From: Psychromonas algarum
Lineage (GTDB): Bacteria; Pseudomonadota; Gammaproteobacteria; Enterobacterales; Psychromonadaceae
Direction of reading: 5' to 3'
NCBI RefSeq assembly: GCF_004376845.1
Contig: NZ_SNUW01000012.1
Coordinates: 1-62,078 of the forward strand
Length of the DNA stretch: 62,078 nucleotides
How positions within the stretch are numbered: the first letter of the stretch is position 1; every line of letters begins with the position of its first letter. The notes under the pieces were generated by a model that did no database searches, was not told the DNA's origin, and was given only the letters and a program-made list of their open reading frames with translations. A program made the translations under genes and the position numbers. Positions 216-61,913 of this stretch are shown here, one piece after another.

Positions 216-1112
216 AATACTAGCTACTAAAAAAACCATTGAATTCTGATAGGTATGATAGTTTTAGTTGTTCTGCTGTTTTAGGTGTTATCGGTGTTCT
301 GGAAATATCAGCTGATACTTTTAATGTAGAAACAGCTACACCAAATAAAGCAGCAACACCTTGGGGTACATTATCAAGAGCAGGCACAAGTGTTGATAAA
401 TATTCAGCCGCACCTCCACTAGCTAGGTTCTTGTAATCAAAGGATATTGAAGGCTTAAAATTTGTAAGATGGAATCCTCTCCATCTCTCTTTTGTAACCC
501 TCATAGAGGCTTCTACTGCTTTACCAAAATCAGTAACAATAAGGTTTTGAGCTAGAGCCCGATCAGGCTCTTTTTGAACTTGTAAACATAACTCATCCAA
601 ATAATACCAAAGTTCTCCAAGCTGTTCTTTTCTTTGATATTTGAATTCAAGAACATCTTCGATAGGAGTACTTCCAGGTGGGACAGGCATTATATTTGCA
701 ATATCTAGTGTTATATTACTACGGAGTTCAGAATGTTGATCTGCAAGGTTTAATCTATCTCCATCCTGCATGAAAACCCACTTTCCTGGCTCCATACCCA
801 TTAATGCTTCAGCAACGATTGCTTGAGCTTCTAAAAGCGATCTTCCACCATCCCCACCAATTTGATTGAGGGTAACCCTTGGCCGTCTAATTAAACCTTG
901 TTCAATAAGAAGTTCTTCATTTTCTATTCCAAAATGCATTAAGCTATTTGTTGGAATGACTACATCATCCCAATACAGCAAGTAGTACCTAAGCTTCTCA
1001 TTGCTCATACCAACTTTCAGAGAAAATTCATTTTTATGTCTTGATTTGACAGCAACCGGAGCTGCAATTATTCCTCTTTCCATTAGTGACTCACTTTGTT
1101 TGTATTGCCTAA
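118..1112 (-). mobile_element. Single-gene integron-type cassette
   Basis: The 287-residue gene is bounded by GTTAGGC core sites. Read on the minus strand, GTTAGGC (1113-1107) precedes the gene and GCCTAAC (215-209) follows it, opening a 99-bp imperfect palindrome. The 12-base sequence GTATTGCCTAAC at 1102-1113 is the exact inverse of 209-220. This is the expected layout of a cassette, where the 5' end TTAGGC belongs to the same attC as the GCCTAAC behind the gene. No integron integrase gene and no second attC lie in the window, so this may be a cassette at a secondary site or the edge of an array continuing to the left. Confidence 0.75.
220..1083 (-). CDS. Cassette-borne hypothetical protein (287 aa)
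   Basis: I do not recognise a function with confidence. The protein is soluble in appearance, with no signal peptide or membrane segment. It starts MERGIIAAP and carries LRYYLLYWDDVVIPTN near residues 31-46, a pattern reminiscent of DUF6236-type proteins (from memory, unverified). The C-terminal third is rich in small residues (GGAAEYLSTLVPALDNVPQG). It fills the integron cassette and its stop lies 5 bases before the attC core, which is typical of cassette genes. Expression would rely on an upstream promoter outside the cassette or a weak internal one. Cassette cargo in marine bacteria is often defence or toxin-antitoxin genes, but nothing here proves such a role. Confidence 0.8.
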   Translation of the reverse strand: MERGIIAAPVAVKSRHKNEFSLKVGMSNEKLRYYLLYWDDVVIPTNSLMHFGIENEELLIEQGLIRRPRVTLNQIGGDGGRSLLEAQAIVAEALMGMEPGKWVFMQDGDRLNLADQHSELRSNITLDIANIMPVPPGSTPIEDVLEFKYQRKEQLGELWYYLDELCLQVQKEPDRALAQNLIVTDFGKAVEASMRVTKERWRGFHLTNFKPSISFDYKNLASGGAAEYLSTLVPALDNVPQGVAALFGVAVSTLKVSADISRTPITPKTAEQLKLSYLSEFNGFFSS

Positions 1113-1251: not shown

Positions 1252-1630
1252 AGCACTGCGGCTACATCAACTTCCCGTTATCGTTTTTCTGAATCAATCA
1301 CTACCTTTAGCAAGCTAAGGCATGGATGCCGTTGCTAGTTCAGTTCGCCACAGGGATGTGGCGTATGAACGGTGCGCTAAGAAGGGAGTTATTTATTCAG
1401 ATTAAAAAACGTTACGGGCGAGTTTCTTTTGGTTCTGTTTTCTTTGTTCGTATAAAGAAAATGAACTCGCCGACAGGGCGAAAACACAGTGAATAAACAT
1501 CAAACTGACCGGACGAGCGCAGACGACTTAACACCTATTCATAAAGGTATCAAAGCACATCTAAACCAAGGCAGGATGAATCCTGCGCCCCAAAACCTAA
1601 CCTTTACGCTTTGCTTAAAGTACAGAAATG
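1252..1630 (+). repeat. Structured dispersed repeat, copy A
   Basis: Non-coding. A closing stem pairs 1289-1307 with 1382-1400 (16 of 19 pairs). It encloses hairpin 1 (GGCA-TGGA-TGCC, 1319-1330, extended by AGCAA/TTGCT) and hairpin 2 (1346-1363, arms CGCCAC/GTGGCG, loop AGGGAT) with an outer GTTCA/TGAAC stem. Downstream follow an AT-rich hairpin (1432-1445 with 1454-1466), the constant small hairpin TCGCC-GACAG-GGCGA (1467-1481) and a tail with GCAGGAT/ATCCTGC (1571-1586). It is the most divergent full copy, yet the pairing is kept. Confidence 0.8.
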
Positions 1631-1659
1631 ACAAGTGAATACTCACAACATAAAACCTT

Positions 1660-1990
1660 ACTCTGCATGTCTACAACTAGCCCACCGTTGAGCTTTCCCA
1701 AATAATTAATAACTTTCAGCAACAGCAAACAGGATGTTTGCTGTAAGTTCATTCGGCACATGGACGTGCCGTATGAACTGATGCGTTAAGAAAGTTGTTG
1801 ATTATTTGGATCAGAAAGCGGTTCGGTAGCCAGTTTCTTTGCCTCCTTTCTTTTCTGGTAAAAGAAAGGAGATCGCCGACAGGGCGAAATAAACGCCAGT
1901 AAAAATCAAACTGCCACGACGAGCGCAGACGCCCCGATATCTAAAACTTGAGTAAATACCCTTTCCTACGCACACCATAGGAAAGGACTA
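1660..1990 (+). repeat. Structured dispersed repeat, copy B
   Basis: Closing stem 1698-1717 with 1790-1809 pairs over 20 bases with only two G-U type pairs. Hairpin 1 is 1723-1743 (arms CAGCAAAC/GTTTGCTG, loop AGGAT). Hairpin 2 is 1754-1771 (arms CGGCAC/GTGCCG, loop ATGGAC) inside a GTTCA/TGAAC stem. The AT-rich hairpin is 1843-1854 with 1860-1871, and the constant hairpin is 1873-1887. It lies in the same orientation as copy A, about 100 bp downstream, in the gap behind pnp. Confidence 0.85.
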
Positions 1991-2125: not shown

Positions 2126-4237
2126 TTACTCTGCTGCTGCTGGCGCTTCTTCTTTTTTCTCTGCTGCTTCTTTCATAGAAAGACGTACGCGACCTTGGCG
2201 GTCTACTTCTAGTACTTTAACTTTAACTTCTTGGCCTTCTTTCAGGTAATCAGAAACTTTTTGAACACGCTCTTCACAGATTTGTGAGATGTGAACAAGA
2301 CCGTCTTTACCAGGAAGAATGTTAACGAATGCGCCGAAATCAGCTAGACGTACAACTTTACCTGTGTAAATAGTACCTACTTCAACTTCAGCAGTCAGTG
2401 CTTTAATGCGGTTGATTGCATCTTCTGCTTGCTCGCCGGATGTTGCTGCAATTTTAACTGTACCGTCATCTTCGATTTCAATTGTTGTACCAGTTTCTTC
2501 ACAAAGAGCACGAATAACTGCGCCGCCTTTACCAATAACATCGCGGATTTTATCCGTGTTGATTTTCAGTGTGTGAATACGTGGAGCGAATTGAGAAATG
2601 TCATCACGACCTTCAGAAATTGCTTCATCCATTACAGATAGAATGTGTAAACGTGCAGCTTTTGCTTGGTTTAAAGCAATTTGCATGATTTCACGAGTGA
2701 TACCTTCAATTTTGATATCCATTTGTAAAGCTGTGATACCGTTAGTTGTACCCGCTACTTTAAAGTCCATATCACCAAGATGATCTTCATCGCCTAAGAT
2801 ATCAGAAAGAACAACGAACTCTTCGCCTTCTTTAACTAGACCCATCGCGATACCCGCAACAGAAGCTTTAAGAGGAACACCAGCATCCATAAGCGCTAGA
2901 GAAGAACCACAAACAGAAGCCATTGAAGATGAACCGTTAGATTCAGTGATTTCCGATACAACACGTACTGTGTATGGGAATTCTTCAACCGTAGGCATTA
3001 CAGCTAATACACCACGTTTCGCTAGACGACCGTGACCAATTTCACGACGTTTAGGAGAACCAACAAAACCAGTTTCACCTACACAGTATGGAGGGAAGTT
3101 GTAATGTAATAAGAAGTGATCTTTCTTCTCACCCATTAGACTATCGATGATTTGTGCGTCACGTTGTGTACCAAGCGTAGCTGTTACTAATGCTTGAGTT
3201 TCACCACGTGTAAATAATGAAGAACCGTGAGTACGTGGTAAAACACCAGTACGAACGTCAAGTGCGCGAACACTTTCAGGATCACGTCCGTCGATACGTG
3301 GCTCACCTTTAATGATGCGAGTACGTACAACAGTTTTTTCTAAATCATGTAAGTATTCACCTACTTGCTTAGCCGCTAACTCTTCGTCAGCCGCTAATAA
3401 TTTTTCTTTAACTTCAGCAGTGATAGCTTTGATTGCGTCGTAACGCTCGCCTTTGTCACTGATTTGGTAAGCCGCTTCAAAACGTGCTTGTGCTTCAGTT
3501 GCAACAGCCGCATCTAATGCTTCGTTACGAACTGGTGCAGTCCAATCCCATTTAGGACGAGCTACTTCAGCAGCAAATTCTTTGATTGCTTCAACAACAA
3601 CTTGTTGCTCATCGTGACCGTATACTACAGCGCCTAACATTACGTCTTCGCTTAAGATACCAGCTTCAGATTCAACCATTAATACTGCGTTGTCTGTACC
3701 AGATACCACAAGGTCTAGCTCACTTGTTTCTAATTCTGTTTTAGTTGGGTTAAGTAGGTATTGACCTTCTTTGTAACCAACACGAGCACAACCGATAGGA
3801 CCATTAAAAGGCATACCAGAGATAGAAAGTGCCGCAGATGTTGCAATCATAGCAACGATATCTGGGTTAACTTCTGGGTTGATTGAAACAACGGTCGCAA
3901 TCACTTGTACTTCATTTTTGAAACCTTCAGGGAAAAGAGGACGAACTGGACGGTCAATAAGACGTGCAATTAACGTTTCTTCTTCAGATGGACGACCTTC
4001 ACGTTTGAAGAAACCACCAGGAATTTTACCTGCAGCGTATGTTTTTTCCTGGTAGTTAACAGTCAGAGGGAAGAAATCACGCTCTTGATCATCAGCATTT
4101 TTACCAACAACAGAAACGAATACACAAGTATCGTCCATGCTACACATTACAGCGGCAGTTGCTTGACGTGCAATTACGCCAGTTTCTAGTGTTACCGTAT
4201 GTTCGCCATACTGGAAACTTTTTACAATAGGAGTCAT
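2126..4237 (-). CDS. pnp: Polynucleotide phosphorylase
   Basis: 3'-to-5' phosphorolytic exoribonuclease of the RNA degradosome; it degrades mRNA using phosphate and can add tails in reverse. Length 703 aa is usual. Two RNase PH domains (about 1-140 and 325-460) flank a helical linker; a KH domain ([18 protein letters not shown], about 555) and an S1 domain (about 620-690) form the RNA-binding end, followed by an acidic Ala/Glu tail. AAAGGA stands 8 bases before the ATG. In most gammaproteobacteria pnp directly follows rpsO; here rpsO lies 4.8 kb away with five genes between, so pnp needs its own promoter in the 240-bp gap to the divergent transferase gene. Confidence 0.98.
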
Positions 4238-4478
4238 TTTTTTTCCTTTATTAAAATAATTTTCTCTATGCTTTTTATCGCGCCCACAGTATACGTCAAC
4301 CCGACTTTTTTTAAACTTTTTTAGGTTAATTTTTTACGATTTATACGTCACTAAAGAGATAAATTAGCGATAATTATCAATTACCTTAAAAAATAGATAT
4401 AAATATGTGAAGTCATATATTTGTCTCTTAAACTAAATTGCTACACTGCAACTATCCAACAATACCCAAGGTTTCATC

Positions 4479-5147
4479 ATGACACCTCAAACATTGCCTA
4501 TTCTTTACTCTTTACGTCATTGTCCTTATGCGATGCGAGCACGTGTTGCCATTTTTAAATCCAATCTGCCTGTTTTATTACGTGATATAAAATTAAATAA
4601 CAAACCATCAGAGATGCTTGCCCTATCGACAAAAAAAACAGTGCCTATGATGGTGATAAAAACAGATAATTCATTACAGGTGCTCGAAGAAAGTTTAGAG
4701 ATAATGCTAAAGCTATTAACGACAAATGATCCACAGCAATTATTAAGCCCGCCCAATACAACATTAGAAGAAATGCTGTCACTTATTCATTATTTTGAAG
4801 CTGAATTAATTCCTGCAAATGAAGCTTATAAATGTGCCAAACGTTACCAAGAAAAGAATATTGTTGAGTGCCGACAAGCATGTGAGGTTTATCTTCAACA
4901 ATTAGAATTACGATTAACTCAACATCGCTATTTATTATCAGATAATGAAAGCTTAATGGACATTGCTTTAATGCCATTTATTCGTCAGTTTTCAAAAGTG
5001 GAACGTCAATGGTATCAACAATCCCCCTATCCTAAATTAAGAGCTTGGTTAAACCATTATTTGCAGAGCCCTATGTTTACCAAAATAATGGCAAAGCATG
5101 AATTATGGGTAGATTGTCATCGAGACATCATTTTTGGAGCAAAATAA
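4479..5147 (+). CDS. Glutathione S-transferase family protein
   Basis: 222 aa with a thioredoxin-fold N-terminal domain starting PILYSLRHCPYAMRARVAI; the CPYA motif (Cys15) is that of glutaredoxin-2-like or Cys-type transferases. EESLEIM near residue 69 is the usual glutathione-contact element, and an all-helical C-terminal domain follows. Cytoplasmic. The substrate is unknown; thiol-disulfide exchange or dehydroascorbate reductase-like work is likely from the motif. It is transcribed alone, divergent from pnp and convergent with tenA, with a hairpin terminator just behind it. Confidence 0.85.
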   Translation: MTPQTLPILYSLRHCPYAMRARVAIFKSNLPVLLRDIKLNNKPSEMLALSTKKTVPMMVIKTDNSLQVLEESLEIMLKLLTTNDPQQLLSPPNTTLEEMLSLIHYFEAELIPANEAYKCAKRYQEKNIVECRQACEVYLQQLELRLTQHRYLLSDNESLMDIALMPFIRQFSKVERQWYQQSPYPKLRAWLNHYLQSPMFTKIMAKHELWVDCHRDIIFGAK

Positions 5148-5186
5148 GCCAACATAATAGAATAACTAAATGTTGGCTTTAACTTG
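5148..5186 (+). terminator. Hairpin terminator after the GST gene
   Basis: GCCAACA (5148-5154) pairs with TGTTGGC (5171-5177), then a T-rich stretch ending in TGTTTTTTATTG. The loop is long (16 bases), so strength is uncertain. The hairpin lies between two convergent genes. Confidence 0.6.
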
Positions 5187-5190
5187 TTTT

Positions 5191-5838
5191 TTATTGATAA
5201 CAAGCATCAAAAAACTGCTTTTCTAATAATACAGCTTGTTGAAAATACTCTTGCATTGATGCTTGTTGAGTTGCATCTGCTTCATTAAATGCAGTATCAA
5301 GTTGAGAGCGTAAATGCTCAATGACAGATTCAAAATACTCACCTGAATGTAAAGTGATCCATTCACCAAAATAAAAGGGTAATGATTCAACAGCCCCAAC
5401 CATTGGTTCTGCCCAGCTTAAATAAACCCATTCAGCAACACATAATACCGCGATCATATTTACGTATTCACCACTGTTTGCCGCTTTCAGCATTAACGCT
5501 TGGAAATCACTGGTTGGTGTTAATAATTTAGGCGCTGTTCGTTCTGATTCAGGCACATTCAACATATCAAAAGAGCGTTGAAAATAAGTATTCTCAGGGC
5601 CGGCAATGATCCCTAAAAAATGCGCTAACGGTAAACGGTCTGGTAAAGAAGGTGCATGATGAATAGCTGATGCCGCTAAACGCACAAAGTTATCGATGAA
5701 AGTATAATCTTGAGCTAAATAAACTCGCATTTTTTCTAATGATAAACTTCCATCTGCTAGCTCAATACAAAATTTATGGTTAGTTGCAGCTGACCATTCT
5801 GCGATACAAGTTTGTTTTAATTGTTCACTTGGGCGCAT
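5191..5838 (-). CDS. tenA: TenA family aminopyrimidine aminohydrolase (thiaminase II)
   Basis: Salvages thiamine breakdown products by hydrolysing 4-amino-5-aminomethyl-2-methylpyrimidine to HMP in the cytoplasm. 215 aa, all helical. Asp44 (AQDYTFIDNF) and Cys133 in VLCVAEWVYLSW match the catalytic residues of the Cys-type TenA class, and a C-terminal LLEKQFFDAC supplies the family glutamate. It follows an ABC transporter operon in the same direction after an 83-bp gap that contains a good terminator, so the two are related by position but not clearly one transcript. Pairing with an uptake system suggests pyrimidine-precursor salvage. Confidence 0.92.
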   Translation of the reverse strand: MRPSEQLKQTCIAEWSAATNHKFCIELADGSLSLEKMRVYLAQDYTFIDNFVRLAASAIHHAPSLPDRLPLAHFLGIIAGPENTYFQRSFDMLNVPESERTAPKLLTPTSDFQALMLKAANSGEYVNMIAVLCVAEWVYLSWAEPMVGAVESLPFYFGEWITLHSGEYFESVIEHLRSQLDTAFNEADATQQASMQEYFQQAVLLEKQFFDACYQ

Positions 5839-5873
5839 GATAATCCCTCATCCATAATGTTTTTATGTGTAAT

Positions 5874-5897
5874 AAAAAAAGAGCTATAAAGCTCTTT
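5874..5897 (-). terminator. Terminator of the ABC operon
   Basis: On the minus strand AAAGAGC (5897-5891), loop TTTATA, GCTCTTT (5884-5878) and a continuing T run. It separates the ATPase gene from tenA. Confidence 0.8.
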
Positions 5898-5921
5898 CTA
5901 TTTAAGTTGAAAAGTTAAAAA

Positions 5922-6725
5922 TTAAGCGCCTAACAATAGCTTATCATCATCTAACTCTTCACCATCAGTGCGCGCTTGTGCAAATAGGTTTAATAAGTCT
6001 TTAACCTCATAACCAGCACGTTTTTCACCTGATAAGTCAAATATGATTTTACCTTCGTGAAGCATGATAGTACGAGAACCATGATCTAAAGCTTGGCGCA
6101 TAGAATGGGTAACCATCATCACTGTTAATTGTTTTTCAGCAATGATCTGCGAAGTAATATCCATTATTAATGCTGCTGTTTTTGGATCCAGTGCAGCTGT
6201 ATGTTCATCTAATAATAAAATAGTACTTGGTTGCAATGCAGACATTAACAAACTAACTGACTGACGTTGCCCACCTGATAACAATCCCATCTCACTGTCG
6301 AGTCTATTTTCAAGGCCAAGGTTTAAGCGACTTAACTGTTCACGAAAAACCTTACGCATATTACTATTTAAAGCTGATGAAAGACGTCCCCTTTTTCCTC
6401 GACCATAAGCAAGAGCCATGTTTTCTTCGACGGTTAAATCGCCACAGGTACCGGCTAACGGATCTTGAAAAACTCGGGCTATATCTGCTGTTCTTCCCGT
6501 AGCGGGTAACTTAGTAACATCTCGCTCACCAAAAAGGATTTTGCCTTTAGTACTGCTTATATCACCTGCAATGGTATTTAATAAAGTCGATTTCCCGGCA
6601 CCGTTAGAGCCAATTACAGTAACAAATTCACCCATCGGAATAGTTAAATCGATACCACGTAATGCTAATTTTTCAGTGGGTAAACCACGGTTAAAAGTTA
6701 CATGTAAATCTTTACAACAAATCAT
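5922..6725 (-). CDS. ABC transporter ATPase
   Basis: 267 aa ATP-binding subunit of an importer at the inner membrane. Walker A is GSNGAGKST (39-47), the signature is LSGGQRQSVSLLMS and Walker B is ILLLDEHTAALDP. DEHTAALDP is typical of ATPases that pair with ABC_sub_bind-type binding proteins. Its ATG overlaps the permease stop by four bases (ATGA), so the two are translationally coupled. Substrate is not readable from the sequence; the tenA neighbour favours a thiamine-related pyrimidine, while relatives in Firmicutes are linked to tryptophan. Confidence 0.9.
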   Translation of the reverse strand: MICCKDLHVTFNRGLPTEKLALRGIDLTIPMGEFVTVIGSNGAGKSTLLNTIAGDISSTKGKILFGERDVTKLPATGRTADIARVFQDPLAGTCGDLTVEENMALAYGRGKRGRLSSALNSNMRKVFREQLSRLNLGLENRLDSEMGLLSGGQRQSVSLLMSALQPSTILLLDEHTAALDPKTAALIMDITSQIIAEKQLTVMMVTHSMRQALDHGSRTIMLHEGKIIFDLSGEKRAGYEVKDLLNLFAQARTDGEELDDDKLLLGA

Positions 6726-7627
6726 GCTTCATTCCTCGCAGCTTGTTTTGCTTTCCACTCTTTACGTAATTTAGGGAAAATTAATGCTAAAGCAACAAGT
6801 ACCGCAGTTATCAGATTTAAATCTGATGCACTAAAACCTAAGAAATCGGCATTAAGCGCCATAGAAACAGCGATTCGATATAACACAGAACCGACAATAC
6901 AGCTGAGTACAATGACGTACATTGAGCGACTAGCAAATAATGATTGACCAATAATAACGGCAGCTAAACCAACAACAATTGTACCAATACCCATTGTTGA
7001 GTCAGCAAAGCCATTAGTTTGTGCAAACAAAGCACCCGCTAAACCAACTAATCCATTAGACAACGCTAGACCAGCATAAACCTTTTGTTTAACGACAATA
7101 CCGTTTGCTTGCGCCATACGCTTATTAGAGCCAACCGCTCGCATTGCCAAGCCATACTGTGTTCTTAAGAACCAAGCAACTAACAAGCCACCAGCAACAG
7201 CACAGATACCAACAAATATCACCCGCATATACATATCGGGCAGACCAAACAAACCTTCAAAAGGTGTTAATATGGTCGGCTCCATTATAAGCGCGACATT
7301 GGGTTTGCCCATCACACGTAGGTTAATGGTATATAAGGCAGTCATTGTTAAAATACTGGCTAACAAATGCAATATATCAAAGCGTAAGTTCAACCAAGCG
7401 GTTACTAGCCCCGCACATGCTGCGGCAAGAGTACCGGCAAGTGTTGCTACTAACACATTAACGCCCATTACAATCAGTGTTGCTGTAACAGCAGCTCCAA
7501 GTGTGAAACTGCCGTCAACGGTTAAATCAGGAAAATCTAAGATACGAAAAGTGAGGTAAACACCAATGGCAACAAGGCCATAAATCAAACCAATTTCTAA
7601 CGTACCTAAAAAAGAAAAAAGAGACAT
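6722..7627 (-). CDS. ABC transporter permease
   Basis: 301 aa integral membrane protein with about eight to nine hydrophobic segments, resembling branched-chain amino acid permeases (LIYGLVAIGVYLTFRILDFP at the N-terminus is the family opening). It is the single permease of the operon and presumably forms a homodimer. It starts 12 bases after the binding-protein stop and overlaps the ATPase gene by four bases. Confidence 0.9.
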   Translation of the reverse strand: MSLFSFLGTLEIGLIYGLVAIGVYLTFRILDFPDLTVDGSFTLGAAVTATLIVMGVNVLVATLAGTLAAACAGLVTAWLNLRFDILHLLASILTMTALYTINLRVMGKPNVALIMEPTILTPFEGLFGLPDMYMRVIFVGICAVAGGLLVAWFLRTQYGLAMRAVGSNKRMAQANGIVVKQKVYAGLALSNGLVGLAGALFAQTNGFADSTMGIGTIVVGLAAVIIGQSLFASRSMYVIVLSCIVGSVLYRIAVSMALNADFLGFSASDLNLITAVLVALALIFPKLRKEWKAKQAARNEA

Positions 7628-7639
7628 TGTGATCCGTTC

Positions 7640-8599
7640 TTATTTAATAATTTTGGTTGCACGAGCTAACGCATCAGCAGGAATCTCTACACCCATGCGT
7701 TTAGCCATTTTAGGATTAACATACAAGTTTGTACCTTCTGCCATTTTCACATCAATCTCACCTGGCTTTTCACCTTTTAGTATACGTACAACTAAGTCAC
7801 CTGTTTGACGACCTAAATCGAAGTAGTTATAGCCAACAGCAGCGACTGCGCCACGAGAAACTGAATCGGTATCACCAGCAAAAACAGGAATTTGAGCATC
7901 AATCCCCACTTTAACAACTGATTCAACAGCACTAATAATAGTGTTATCAATTGGGCAGTAGATTGCATCAACTTTACCAACTAACTGCTTAGTTGCGATC
8001 ATCACATCAGAAGATTTAGGGGCAGCTGATTCAATAATTTTGATGCCCATTTCAGCAGCAGCTACTTTTAATGCAGCAACGCTTGATACTGAATTGGCTT
8101 CACCTGGATTATACGGAACACCAACTGTTTTTAAATTAGGTATAAATTCTTTCATCAACTCTAAATGTTGTTTCACATTTACCATGTCAGACAAACCTGT
8201 CACATTGCCACCTGGCTGTTTTAAGCTAGGGACCAATTTAGCGCCAATTGGATCGGTTACTGCAGAAAATACAACGGGAATATCACGACTTACACTAACC
8301 GCAGCTTGTGCGGAAGGTGTTGCAATAGCAACAATAACATCAGGTCGGTCGCCTACCATTTTACGCGCAATTTGTGCGGCAATAGCAGGCTGTCCTTGAG
8401 CACTTTCATAAGTGAACTTTAAGTTATCCCCTTCATAACCATTTTCAACTAAAGATGACTTAATTCCATCACGTACGGCATCTAATGCAGGGTGTTCAAC
8501 AATGGCTGTGGTGGCAATATAAACAGGCTTTGCTTGTAAACTAGTAGAAATGACGGCAACAGCCAGAAGAGTACTTTTAAGAATTGAATTGAGCTTCAT
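7640..8599 (-). CDS. ABC transporter substrate-binding protein (ABC_sub_bind family)
   Basis: 319 aa periplasmic binding protein, first gene of a three-gene operon. A signal peptide covers about residues 1-23 (hydrophobic LLAVAVISTSLQA). The fold is the type-1 periplasmic binding protein; VIVAIATPSAQAAVS, DIPVVFSAVTDPIGAKLV and GGNVTGLSDM are hallmarks of the PF04392 family. The ligand is unknown, with thiamine-precursor or aromatic amino acid as the main options from context and family. Confidence 0.9.
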   Translation of the reverse strand: MKLNSILKSTLLAVAVISTSLQAKPVYIATTAIVEHPALDAVRDGIKSSLVENGYEGDNLKFTYESAQGQPAIAAQIARKMVGDRPDVIVAIATPSAQAAVSVSRDIPVVFSAVTDPIGAKLVPSLKQPGGNVTGLSDMVNVKQHLELMKEFIPNLKTVGVPYNPGEANSVSSVAALKVAAAEMGIKIIESAAPKSSDVMIATKQLVGKVDAIYCPIDNTIISAVESVVKVGIDAQIPVFAGDTDSVSRGAVAAVGYNYFDLGRQTGDLVVRILKGEKPGEIDVKMAEGTNLYVNPKMAKRMGVEIPADALARATKIIK

Positions 8600-9020: not shown

Positions 9021-9290
9021 TTAACGACGTAGACCTAATTCTGCGATTAATGCTGTGTAAGCTGCAACATTTTTACGCTTTAAGTAGTCAAGTAATTTAC
9101 GACGTTGACTAACCATGCGTAATAGACCACGACGGCTGTGGTGATCATGGATGTGCTCTTTGAAGTGACCTTGAAGGTGGTTGATTTGTACTGTGTACAA
9201 TGCAACTTGAACTTCAGGTGAACCAGTATCGCCTTCTGCGCGACCAAATTTTGCTACAATCTCAGCTTTCTGTTCTGCACTTAGTGACAT
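9021..9290 (-). CDS. rpsO: 30S ribosomal protein S15
   Basis: 89 aa, the normal length. S15 binds the 16S rRNA central domain early in 30S assembly. The sequence shows the family core ([51 protein letters not shown]). CGGAGT lies 8 bases before the ATG. The gene has lost its usual neighbours: truB is not upstream and pnp is not downstream, and a strong terminator follows it, so it is a single-gene unit. Confidence 0.98.
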
Positions 9291-9474
9291 AACGTACTCC
9301 GATATTTTGTGGTTATGTGAATAACCTATTTTAATTATTATCGCCGATCACTAATTCAGCGATAAAGTGAACGCCGAATAATACGGACTTTATAGTGACT
9401 GTGCAACTATAAAAGCGGCTTATTTTAGCTGTTCTATTAAAATTGTTAATAAACAGAAAATGGGGGTTAATAAA

Positions 9475-53619: not shown

Positions 53620-53760
53620 TGTTGAGTTCGTCTACACTCATCGAGTCAGTCTGATATTTTTAACTTTAGATGTCACCCTTTCATCGAGTTACTTTTTTCT
53701 CTACCAGCAGAGACTGGCACCTAATCGCTTTCTTGATCCAAGAAATGCACTCATTTTAAT
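53620..53760 (-). repeat. Decayed structured repeat, fragment D
   Basis: Read on the minus strand it matches the 3' half of copy C: TTGGATCAAGAAAGCGATT, GGTGCCAGTCTC, GAGAAAAAAGTAACTCG, then TCAGACTGACTCGATGAG. The constant small hairpin is broken and the left arm of the AT-rich hairpin is shortened. Confidence 0.65.
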
Positions 53761-53814: not shown

Positions 53815-53960
53815 TTTTTTTGGGGCGTAGGATTGATCCTACTGTTTTTTAAATATCTTCTCGTTCCTATGGTCTACGTGGAAAACCATATTTTAGTATT
53901 CAGATTGTATTGGCTCGTCTGCGCTCGTTGAGTTGAGTTGATATTGTTAGCTTTAGATTT
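53815..53960 (-). repeat. Decayed structured repeat tail, fragment G
   Basis: Minus-strand tail module with AACGAGCGCAGACGAG and the hairpin GTAGGAT/ATCCTAC (53827-53842), a paired change compared with GCAGGAT/ATCCTGC in copies A and F. Confidence 0.6.
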
Positions 53961-53974
53961 CCGCGCTAACGACG

Positions 53975-54150
53975 TGTTACTGTCTTTTGCGTGCCCAAAA
54001 GATCCACACCAACAAAAGCAAAGAAAAAGGCACTCCGACTGGATGAGCGCAGACGAGATAATACCTGTTCATAAAAGTACCAAACCACATTCAAACCAAA
54101 GCAGGATGGATCCTGCGCCTCAATTACGTTTCAACTAAAGTACAAAAAAC
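53975..54150 (+). repeat. Decayed structured repeat, fragment F
   Basis: Plus-strand 3' part: short AT-rich hairpin TCTTTTG/CAAAAGA (about 53983-54002), GATGAGCGCAGACGAG, TACCTGTTCATAAAAGTACC and hairpin GCAGGAT/ATCCTGC (54101-54116). Aligns with the tail of copy A over about 110 bp. A 66-codon frame here is spurious. Confidence 0.65.
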
Positions 54151-55439: not shown

Positions 55440-55535
55440 GCTATTTTTAGTTTTGATCCGTCTCCGCTCATTGGATCTAATTGATTTTTATTGGCAGAGG
55501 TTTATCCCTGTCCGCGACTTCAATGTATGGCTATC
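55440..55535 (-). repeat. Decayed structured repeat tail, fragment E
   Basis: Minus strand: GTCGCGGACAGGGATAAAC (derived from the constant hairpin), AATAAAAATCAATTAGATCC, AATGAGCGGAGACGGATC. Corresponds to the 3' tail of copies B and C. A copy of the short motif (ATGGCTATCCACTACTTTT) lies at 55526. Confidence 0.55.
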
Positions 55536-61459: not shown

Positions 61460-61800
61460 TAACAACACGGCTACAACTCCCCCACCGTTGAGCTTTCCCA
61501 AATAATGAATAACTTTCAGCAACAGCAAACAGGACGTTTGCTGTAAGTTCATTCAGCGCATGGACGCGCTGTATGAACTGGTGCGTTAAGAAAGTTATTG
61601 ATTATTTGGATCAGAAAGCGATTCGGTGCCAGTCTCTTTTGGTTACTTTTCTCTTCTGGCAAAGAGAAAAGTAACTCGCCGACAGGGCGAAAACACAGCT
61701 AATAAACCTCAATCTGACTCGACGAGCGTAGACGAGACAGCACCTTATATTCCAATAACACAACTAAATATGAATTCCCACGGAGACCGCGGGAACTAGA
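61460..61800 (+). repeat. Structured dispersed repeat, copy C
   Basis: Closing stem 61497-61516 with 61589-61608 pairs at 19 of 20 positions. Hairpin 1 is 61522-61542 (loop AGGAC), hairpin 2 is 61553-61570 (arms CAGCGC/GCGCTG, loop ATGGAC) within GTTCA/TGAAC. The AT-rich hairpin is a perfect 14-bp stem (61641-61654 with 61661-61674), and the constant hairpin is 61675-61689. A tail hairpin TTCCC-CGG/CCG-GGGAA lies at 61774-61794. Confidence 0.85.
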
Positions 61801-61829
61801 AAAAGCAAAACCTAAAAACTAAACTATGT

Positions 61830-61851
61830 ATTCCCACAGAAGACAGTGGGA
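61830..61851 (+). repeat. Tail hairpin module
   Basis: TTCCCAC (61830-61836) pairs with GTGGGAA (61845-61851). Related to the hairpin at 61774-61794, 57 bp away, with partly changed arms that still pair. Confidence 0.6.
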
Positions 61852-61913
61852 ACGAGACAACCAAAAAGCTAAGACCAACCGCTACCCTTTCAATTCCGTC
61901 AATTTCAACCTCG

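Follow-up and report, generated by a model that had tools for sequence, protein, structure and literature searches.

The stretch of DNA analysed here (hereafter the window) comprises 62,078 nucleotides of a Psychromonas algarum contig (NZ_SNUW01000012.1) and is part of a 3.07-Mb genome. Near its left end two copies of a structured repeat, A and B, lie between a DUF6236 gene and pnp, and a third copy, C, lies near its right end. The features are as follows.

220..1083, minus strand: DUF6236 gene 5′ of copy A, a possible accessory neighbour (PF19749, 2.5e-23).
1254..1535, plus strand: copy A, whole repeat (model positions 4-286 of 286; nhmmer 237.1 bits).
1266-1426, plus strand: RF01731 match of copy A (64.2 bits).
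1289..1308, plus strand: closing stem of A, 5′ arm, paired with 1381-1400 with 3 mismatches (direct reading; helices 1-2 of the covariation test).
1313..1336, plus strand: hairpin 1 of A, loop AUGGAU (direct reading; helix 4 of the covariation test).
1338..1370, plus strand: hairpin 2 of A, inner arms CGCCAC/GTGGCG, loop AGGGAU (direct reading; helix 5).
1381..1400, plus strand: closing stem of A, 3′ arm (direct reading; covariation test).
1431..1467, plus strand: AT-rich hairpin of A (fold prediction; class median z -2.6).
1467..1481, plus strand: constant small hairpin of A, TCGCC-GACAG-GGCGA (direct reading; without energy or covariation support).
1512..1526, plus strand: conserved 3′ end of A, GACGAGCGCAGACGA (flank profile).
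1661..1939, plus strand: copy B, whole repeat (model positions 2-284; nhmmer 240.7 bits).
1675-1836, plus strand: RF01731 match of copy B (69 bits).
1698..1809, plus strand: core of B, closing-stem arms 1698-1717 and 1790-1809 (predicted fold of copy B; covariation test).
1722-1744, plus strand: hairpin 1 of B, loop AGGAU (predicted fold of copy B).
1746-1779, plus strand: hairpin 2 of B, loop AUGGAC (predicted fold of copy B).
1843..1871, plus strand: AT-rich hairpin of B (fold prediction; class-level z).
1873..1887, plus strand: constant small hairpin of B (direct reading; without folding-energy support).
2126..4237, minus strand: pnp, the landmark gene, its 3′ end facing copies A and B.
53622..53756, minus strand: repeat fragment, model positions 133-283 (nhmmer 48.5 bits).
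53909..54038, minus strand: repeat fragment, model positions 165-283 (nhmmer 44.4 bits).
55452..55523, minus strand: repeat fragment, model positions 212-283 (nhmmer 34.1 bits).
61463..61742, plus strand: copy C, whole repeat (model positions 4-284; nhmmer 268.9 bits).
61488-61620, plus strand: RF01731 match of copy C (64.5 bits).
61498..61609, plus strand: core of C, closing-stem arms 61498-61517 and 61590-61609 (direct reading; covariation alignment).
61522-61544, plus strand: hairpin 1 of C (direct reading).
61546-61579, plus strand: hairpin 2 of C (direct reading).

The DUF6236 gene gave no PADLOC match at 1e-5 and was absent, by tblastn, from 20 other stretches downstream of pnp, while pnp itself was found in all 24 genomes of the genus searched (in G012 only through a weak partial match). 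An S15 leader (RF00114) at window 9234-9367 precedes pnp by about 5 kb, and ABC-transporter-like genes occupy the space between them (window 2126-8599); the usual order has rpsO next to pnp. In several Psychromonas species the last 30-60 codons or so of pnp recur as one to three further copies downstream of the gene, along with an apparent terminator (L100/L149 in G006, L150 in G020, L151 in G014, L152 in G019, L153 in G011, L154 in G023 and L155 in G016), and some of these tandem tails contain a CTGCGAAACTGCGTTTCGG hairpin. The possibility that this duplication of the pnp 3′ end forms part of the repeat was considered and rejected; the tails are a separate feature.

Copies A, B and C are members of the Rfam family RF01731, TwoAYGGAY. 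All three score above its gathering cut-off of 43 bits, as expected of a non-coding RNA family, one of the two natures proposed in the original prediction, and in each of them two hairpins with AYGGAY-type loops stand within a closing stem; the second loop residue is absent from loop 1 of B and of C (AGGAC in the latter). Direct reading confirmed in all three the layout that had been claimed, namely a closing stem around two hairpins followed by an AT-rich hairpin and a constant small hairpin. The closing stem of about 20 bp is present in A and B, perfectly paired in B and less so in A, and the hairpin-2 arms of copy C, given earlier as 61553-61570, actually occupy 61554-61571, one base away.

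A profile built on A, B and C, iterated and searched against the window and 86 loci, gave 242 matches, 137 of them nearly full length. Conservation begins near a 5′ ACTCAATGYGGCTACAAC and stops after the 3′ GACGAGCGCAGACGA, as judged from the flank profile. The unit is thus about 285 bp long with conserved ends of its own, so that RF01731 covers only part of it. This longer multicopy repeat around RF01731, with its loop cassettes and divergent pairs, is new here. The 215 aligned copies contain 64 insertions of at least 15 nt, located in the hairpin-1 loop (25), beside hairpin 2 (3), at model position 97 (1), at positions 168-176 (7) and in the AT-rich hairpin at positions 190-215 (28). One double-hairpin cassette of about 55 nt, cassette 1, is nearly confined to the repeat (33 occurrences inside, 3 outside), and another type of about 42 nt occurs 22 times inside the repeat and 16 times elsewhere, the tandem pnp tails included. 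Judging from its sequence, the hairpin-1 cassette could pair with the GGA and thereby hide it. Two further kinds of sequence were also seen: REP-like palindromes, TTCCCACGGAGACCGCGGGAAC and relatives, at window 61765-61860 and beside copies in other species, and three tandem units of about 110-135 bp resembling the 3′ part of the repeat (L097, G000:C9:26382-26754), preceded by a gene that resembles hrpA.

A pattern written for the 3′ part of the repeat and matched exactly occurs in 71 named genome stretches, all from Psychromonas. Carriage by viruses found no support, as this single pattern had no exact match in viral contigs. With strict filters, RF01731 matches were found in 20 of the 24 genus genomes, 2-35 in each, and none in G003, G010, G017 or G022; full scoring with E up to 1 gave 32 matches in G008 and 34 in G019, 25 of the latter above the cut-off. 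In an order-wide draw in which only six candidates per genome were scored, 90 of 394 genomes matched RF01731, 71 of them above the cut-off, in 22 of 115 genera, and five genomes of other genera hold 12-20 matches each. Eleven of 20 loci from other genera matched the Psychromonas profile at 1e-3, eight of these past model position 200. By reading, other genera show the same arrangement, with two ANGGA hairpins enclosed by a long stem and a long hairpin after them; in some of these genera the same loops sit on GC-rich stems. For 63 of 128 copies the nearest neighbour is a copy in the same genome, a proportion that neither proves nor excludes recent bursts.

The fold was assessed on 43 Psychromonas core copies, consisting of 41 copies below 85% mutual identity (including C) together with A and B, and pairs were scored against the predicted fold of copy B (45 pairs, 1878 cells). 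Pairing was retained in 87.3% of the cells, compared with 64.8 +/- 0.8 in shuffles and 35.2-42.3 when partners were slid by 1-3 columns. Double-change cells numbered 473, against 163.4 +/- 11.8 in shuffles and 78-131 after sliding; 39 of the 45 pairs have changed on both sides, and none of 500 shuffles attained any of the five pairing measures. RNAalifold, unaided, recovered 32 pairs, 26 of them with double changes, and left out the outer closing stem. The proposal that paired changes in the arms reflect selection for a folded RNA or single-stranded DNA is therefore well supported across the family. G-U wobbles (111) and A-C mismatches (28) compare with 226.5 and 152.8 expected from the column make-up of the core alignment; since G-U is tolerated and its mirror A-C is not, it is the plus strand that folds. 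This asymmetry indicates a fold of one strand and not a cruciform, and is compatible with RNA as well as with single-stranded DNA.

Folding energies of 44 non-redundant copies point to the same parts of the repeat. The core has a median z of -5.8, below -2 in 98% of copies, and the AT-rich hairpin, which had been predicted correctly, a median of -2.6, below -2 in 68%. The constant small hairpin, CGCC-GACAG-GGCG, which was part of the same prediction, was not supported by this analysis (median z -0.3); its lack of covariation follows from its constant sequence. Neither a possible 5′ hairpin (median z -0.3) nor the 3′ tail (-0.1) received support in the same set.

While the stems vary, both loops retain the ANGGA motif. 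Of 157 copies, 153 keep GGA in hairpin 1, 152 keep it in hairpin 2 and 149 have it in both loops; among 41 non-redundant copies, 35 have it in both. Frequent loops include AACAGGACGU, ACAUGGAUGU and ACAGGGAUGU. The motif CA(N)GGANG is present in loop 1 of 149 and in loop 2 of 151 of the 157 copies, and in both loops of none of 3140 shuffles. According to a review of CsrA (PMC7652899), the SELEX consensus is RUACARGGAUGU in hairpin loops and CsrB repeats carry CAGGA(U/A/C)G; the hairpin-2 loop of copy A, AGGGAU, fits the ACARGGAUGU portion of this consensus. The same source indicates that most SELEX ligands had stems shorter than the stable 6-10 bp that are found in the TwoAYGGAY repeat, and that longer stems may weaken CsrA binding. 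In the accessible text of a 2014 study, TwoAYGGAY was proposed as a possible CsrA binder for Clostridia (PMC4333381). A role in CsrA binding is thus a published prediction and not a new one, which the loop sequences strengthen without proving it. Literature searches returned nothing on CsrA with intergenic repeats in Psychromonas and, among the matches listed, nothing relevant that linked CsrA to repeats, sponges or mobile elements.

Each copy might accordingly be viewed as an ordinary host-selected small RNA that sequesters CsrA, the high copy number raising the dose of the sponge. Such a role would agree with the CsrB-like loop motif, with the prediction published for the family and with the occurrence of csrA in 23 of the 24 genus genomes, the one without it being 79% complete. 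Yet CsrB itself is already present: RF00018 matches were found in 23 of the 24 genomes, 12 of them above the cut-off, so that the repeat would not be needed as the only sponge. A role as CsrA decoys of any kind is also weakened by four genomes of the genus in which csrA or near kin occurs without an RF01731 match. As a separate observation, RF00018 CsrB matches occur as neighbouring copies in G009:C4, G015:C26, G000:C37, G019:C2 and G020:C1.

The position of the copies relative to genes also sits badly with a host-selected sponge, since copies occur in every orientation to their neighbours and share no upstream promoter: no conserved promoter or other block was detected in the 80 bp 5′ of the repeat in 137 copies. 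Of 135 copies located between two ORFs, 55 have both neighbours on the opposite strand and 28 have both on the same strand (two-sided p 0.004), and the remaining 52 have mixed neighbours (27 + 25); the gene on the 3′ side is on the same strand in 55 and on the opposite strand in 80. A cis-regulatory leader, as the Rfam type label 'Cis-reg' of RF01731 would have it, was rejected on these mixed orientations, and in the available part of their report Weinberg et al. scored the TwoAYGGAY motif 'n' for cis-regulation (PMC2864571). We regard a leader as highly improbable.

A different picture emerges when orthologous copies are compared. Fourteen orthologous pairs were found by their flanks between genomes G008 and G019 and ten were analysed, in a small test that uses one member's own predicted fold. 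Twelve single changes break a pair, seven keep pairing and one double change keeps it (20 in total); the 7 of 19 single changes that kept pairing compare with 3.3 expected under equal substitution, and substitutions affected 21 of 862 paired sites (2.4%) and 16 of 488 unpaired sites (3.3%). Individual copies thus appear to be under weak constraint, although pairing across the whole family stands at 87%. Whether changes in the arms disrupt pairing as frequently as they preserve it hence has two answers: they do not across the family, but they nearly do between orthologues of these two close species. The latter weighs further against host-selected sponges, an explanation that, on the sequences, we consider decidedly unlikely. 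Since orthologues so often lose pairs, turnover and not copy-by-copy selection may keep the fold; the breakage fits amplification of the repeat, most simply with intact copies giving rise to new ones or replacing older ones. One element is 99% identical at two loci (L142 and L074) whose surroundings are less similar.

Alternatively, the repeat may be non-autonomous mobile DNA, whose plus strand would form single-stranded hairpins for some transposase or integrase to recognize; the loops would then resemble CsrA sites by coincidence. Its defined ends, its dispersal, the nested loop cassettes, the fold on one strand only and the apparent decay of copies after insertion would all be expected of such an element. 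A site between two core genes, X and Y, is instructive in this respect. The distance between the two genes is 29 nt in G018 and 12 nt in G014, and in G000, G002 and G011 they are separated by 160-306 nt with no profile match, so that five genomes have no element at this site; four others, G019, G020, G006 and G008, have one to three repeat copies there, with differing enclosed genes. By reading, G002 and G011 appear to retain two inverted 3′ ends, and loss of elements from the site is thus possible. At the pnp site, G018 has copies where A and B sit (79% and 84% identity) next to a different neighbouring gene. Both sites fit repeats that persist as borders while their contents change; gain, loss or exchange could each have produced such a pattern.

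Against mobile DNA of this kind, no target-site duplication of at least six bases was seen in the 14 divergent pairs with both outer ends readable, these pairs scoring no better than mismatched ones, and no transposase for the repeat was found at the loci examined. Nor did G008 and G019 differ by any clean single-element insertion; their differences resemble tandem change or array expansion, deletion, or exchange limited to the element. Two flanking accessory sequences used as queries retrieved orthologues in the close relative G008 only, or nothing beyond a 23-base match, and hence no empty site. The close match of the loops to a protein–RNA consensus is a further difficulty. We therefore see mobile DNA, taken by itself, as a rather unlikely explanation. 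A reverse transcriptase gene (RVT_1, L064:3550-4539) was observed near repeat copies in G013, and presumably accounts for the RT_I-B match (2.8e-117) in the pooled PADLOC scan.

The spacing of copies provides another clue. A census of 290 copies and fragments at 97 loci, which had been chosen around matches and preferably around clusters, gave 23 divergent, 4 convergent and 27 tandem neighbours at 0.5-4 kb, and 14 divergent, 4 convergent and 87 tandem neighbours less than 150 bp apart. The 23 divergent pairs include orthologous sites; collapsed by hand, they leave 16 divergent versus 4 convergent (p 0.012). In the 71 named Psychromonas stretches, 12 divergent pairs compare with 1 convergent (2 versus 0 among those not overlapping the first set), and RF01731 matches at most 4 kb apart were divergent rather than convergent in G019 (5 versus 0), G005 (3 versus 0, from 9 of 11 matches listed) and G008 (1 versus 0, from 27 of 32 matches used). 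Close inverted dimers, 40-80 bp apart and with one partner often lacking the 3′ end, were seen separately at L056, L057, L086 and L087 (G007, G009).

The divergent pairs enclose accessory, partly defence-like genes. Twelve of 34 enclosed proteins (35 were counted, and one orthologue was dropped) matched Pfam at 1e-3, compared with 14 of 20 randomly drawn outside proteins, so that enclosed genes are more often unfamiliar; the matches include GmrSD_N, SIR2-like, AAA_21, KAP NTPase, SLATT_5, Bro-N, ASCH and DUF2971 domains, among others. When scanned singly against PADLOC at 1e-5, 11 of 29 enclosed proteins matched, in 8 of 22 intervals; the other 5 of the 34 went through a pooled scan only. Examples are PDC-M01A/B (1.8e-208, 2.9e-116), PDC-S20, PDC-S49 and PDC-M11A/B, although many PADLOC names stand for candidate systems that are themselves only predicted. 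Regions outside the pairs hold some defence genes too: 34 outside proteins, scanned together as a control, gave matches to 66 PADLOC families, of which the 25 listed point to at least two proteins; this control is not strictly matched to the single-protein scans of the enclosed genes. Genes between tandem copies (5 of 31, chosen by size) were ordinary where they matched (GGDEF, Na/H exchanger, MerR-methyltransferase, Ig-like). Literature searches found nothing on intergenic repeats with defence cargo.

These pairs raise the possibility, new here, that outward-facing TwoAYGGAY copies border exchangeable gene cassettes that are swapped by homologous recombination, the RNA being secondary. The excess of divergent pairs, the PADLOC matches between them and the X-Y site, where one site holds differing enclosed genes and the left copy has a similar outer flank in G019, G020 and G006, would be accounted for in this way. 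On the other hand, the loci were selected around matches and clusters, tandem pairs at the same distances are equally frequent, and inverted repeats are expected to invert, not excise, the intervening DNA by simple recombination. In addition, the matches in five genomes from outside the genus showed no gene-sized brackets; the pattern may thus be restricted to Psychromonas or to genomes rich in copies. Cassette borders as the main explanation consequently seem to us rather unlikely. If it could be upheld, such a role would offer a simple route of gene turnover for defence genes in marine gammaproteobacteria.

Taken together, the data are on balance best explained, and we think somewhat more probably than not, by a dispersed repeat of about 285 bp with a TwoAYGGAY centre, whose loops would be decoys for CsrA and which would be renewed by turnover. 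Because no shared promoter is seen in the repeat flanks, copies would be transcribed mainly by read-through. In a transcribed copy, the two loops may jointly serve as decoys for a CsrA dimer, in the manner of CsrB-type RNAs. The repeat would spread and be renewed within genomes by some process, and structure would consequently be maintained among those copies that amplify, single copies decaying after insertion. It is tempting to go further and to speculate, with a small chance of being right, that the repeats constitute an unrecognized cassette system, in which outward TwoAYGGAY pairs border exchangeable accessory and defence genes and the repeats themselves are self-amplifying CsrA decoys. 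This would mean that a selfish structured RNA both taps the Csr network of its host and supplies recombination borders for gene turnover. The TwoAYGGAY family dates from 2010, and the portions of its literature available to us contain no functional test. With TwoAYGGAY as the core of a multicopy repeat, the question shifts from the function of an sRNA to why the repeat keeps two CsrA-like sites. CsrA binding could be tested directly on the dozens of natural copies, in which the stems vary freely and the loops are fixed.

Several known systems resemble the repeat in part. Integron attC sites are folded sites with variable stems next to accessory genes, arranged in gene-attC arrays; the repeat shares the fold, the variable stems and the adjacent accessory genes, but its orientation to genes is mixed, not constant downstream of each cassette gene, and its flanking pattern is divergent. 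REP/BIME and other dispersed hairpin repeats, MITEs and IS200-derived elements are, like the repeat, multicopy intergenic palindromes that sometimes form clusters or inverted pairs. The repeat is much larger, with a strongly covarying one-strand fold and conserved loops resembling protein sites, and it showed no target-site duplication in the 14 divergent pairs. The double-hairpin elements of fungal mitochondria are small hairpin cassettes in loops of other structures, as are the cassettes described here, which differ in residing in a bacterial chromosome and, for cassette 1, in being nearly restricted to the repeat. The sponge RNAs CsrB, CsrC and RsmX-Y-Z likewise expose GGA in hairpin loops, in a CAGGAYG or ACANGGAUGU context; in contrast to them, the repeat has two sites per copy and not many, is dispersed and shows no promoter, and in Psychromonas a separate RF00018 CsrB match exists beside it. 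The closest relative is RF01731 TwoAYGGAY itself, with which the copies share sequence and structure, including the two AYGGAY-type hairpins within an outer stem. Beyond TwoAYGGAY as presented in the accessible part of its published description, the Psychromonas repeat forms a unit of about 285 bp with conserved ends and a long downstream hairpin, and adds loop cassettes, a high copy number and divergent pairing.
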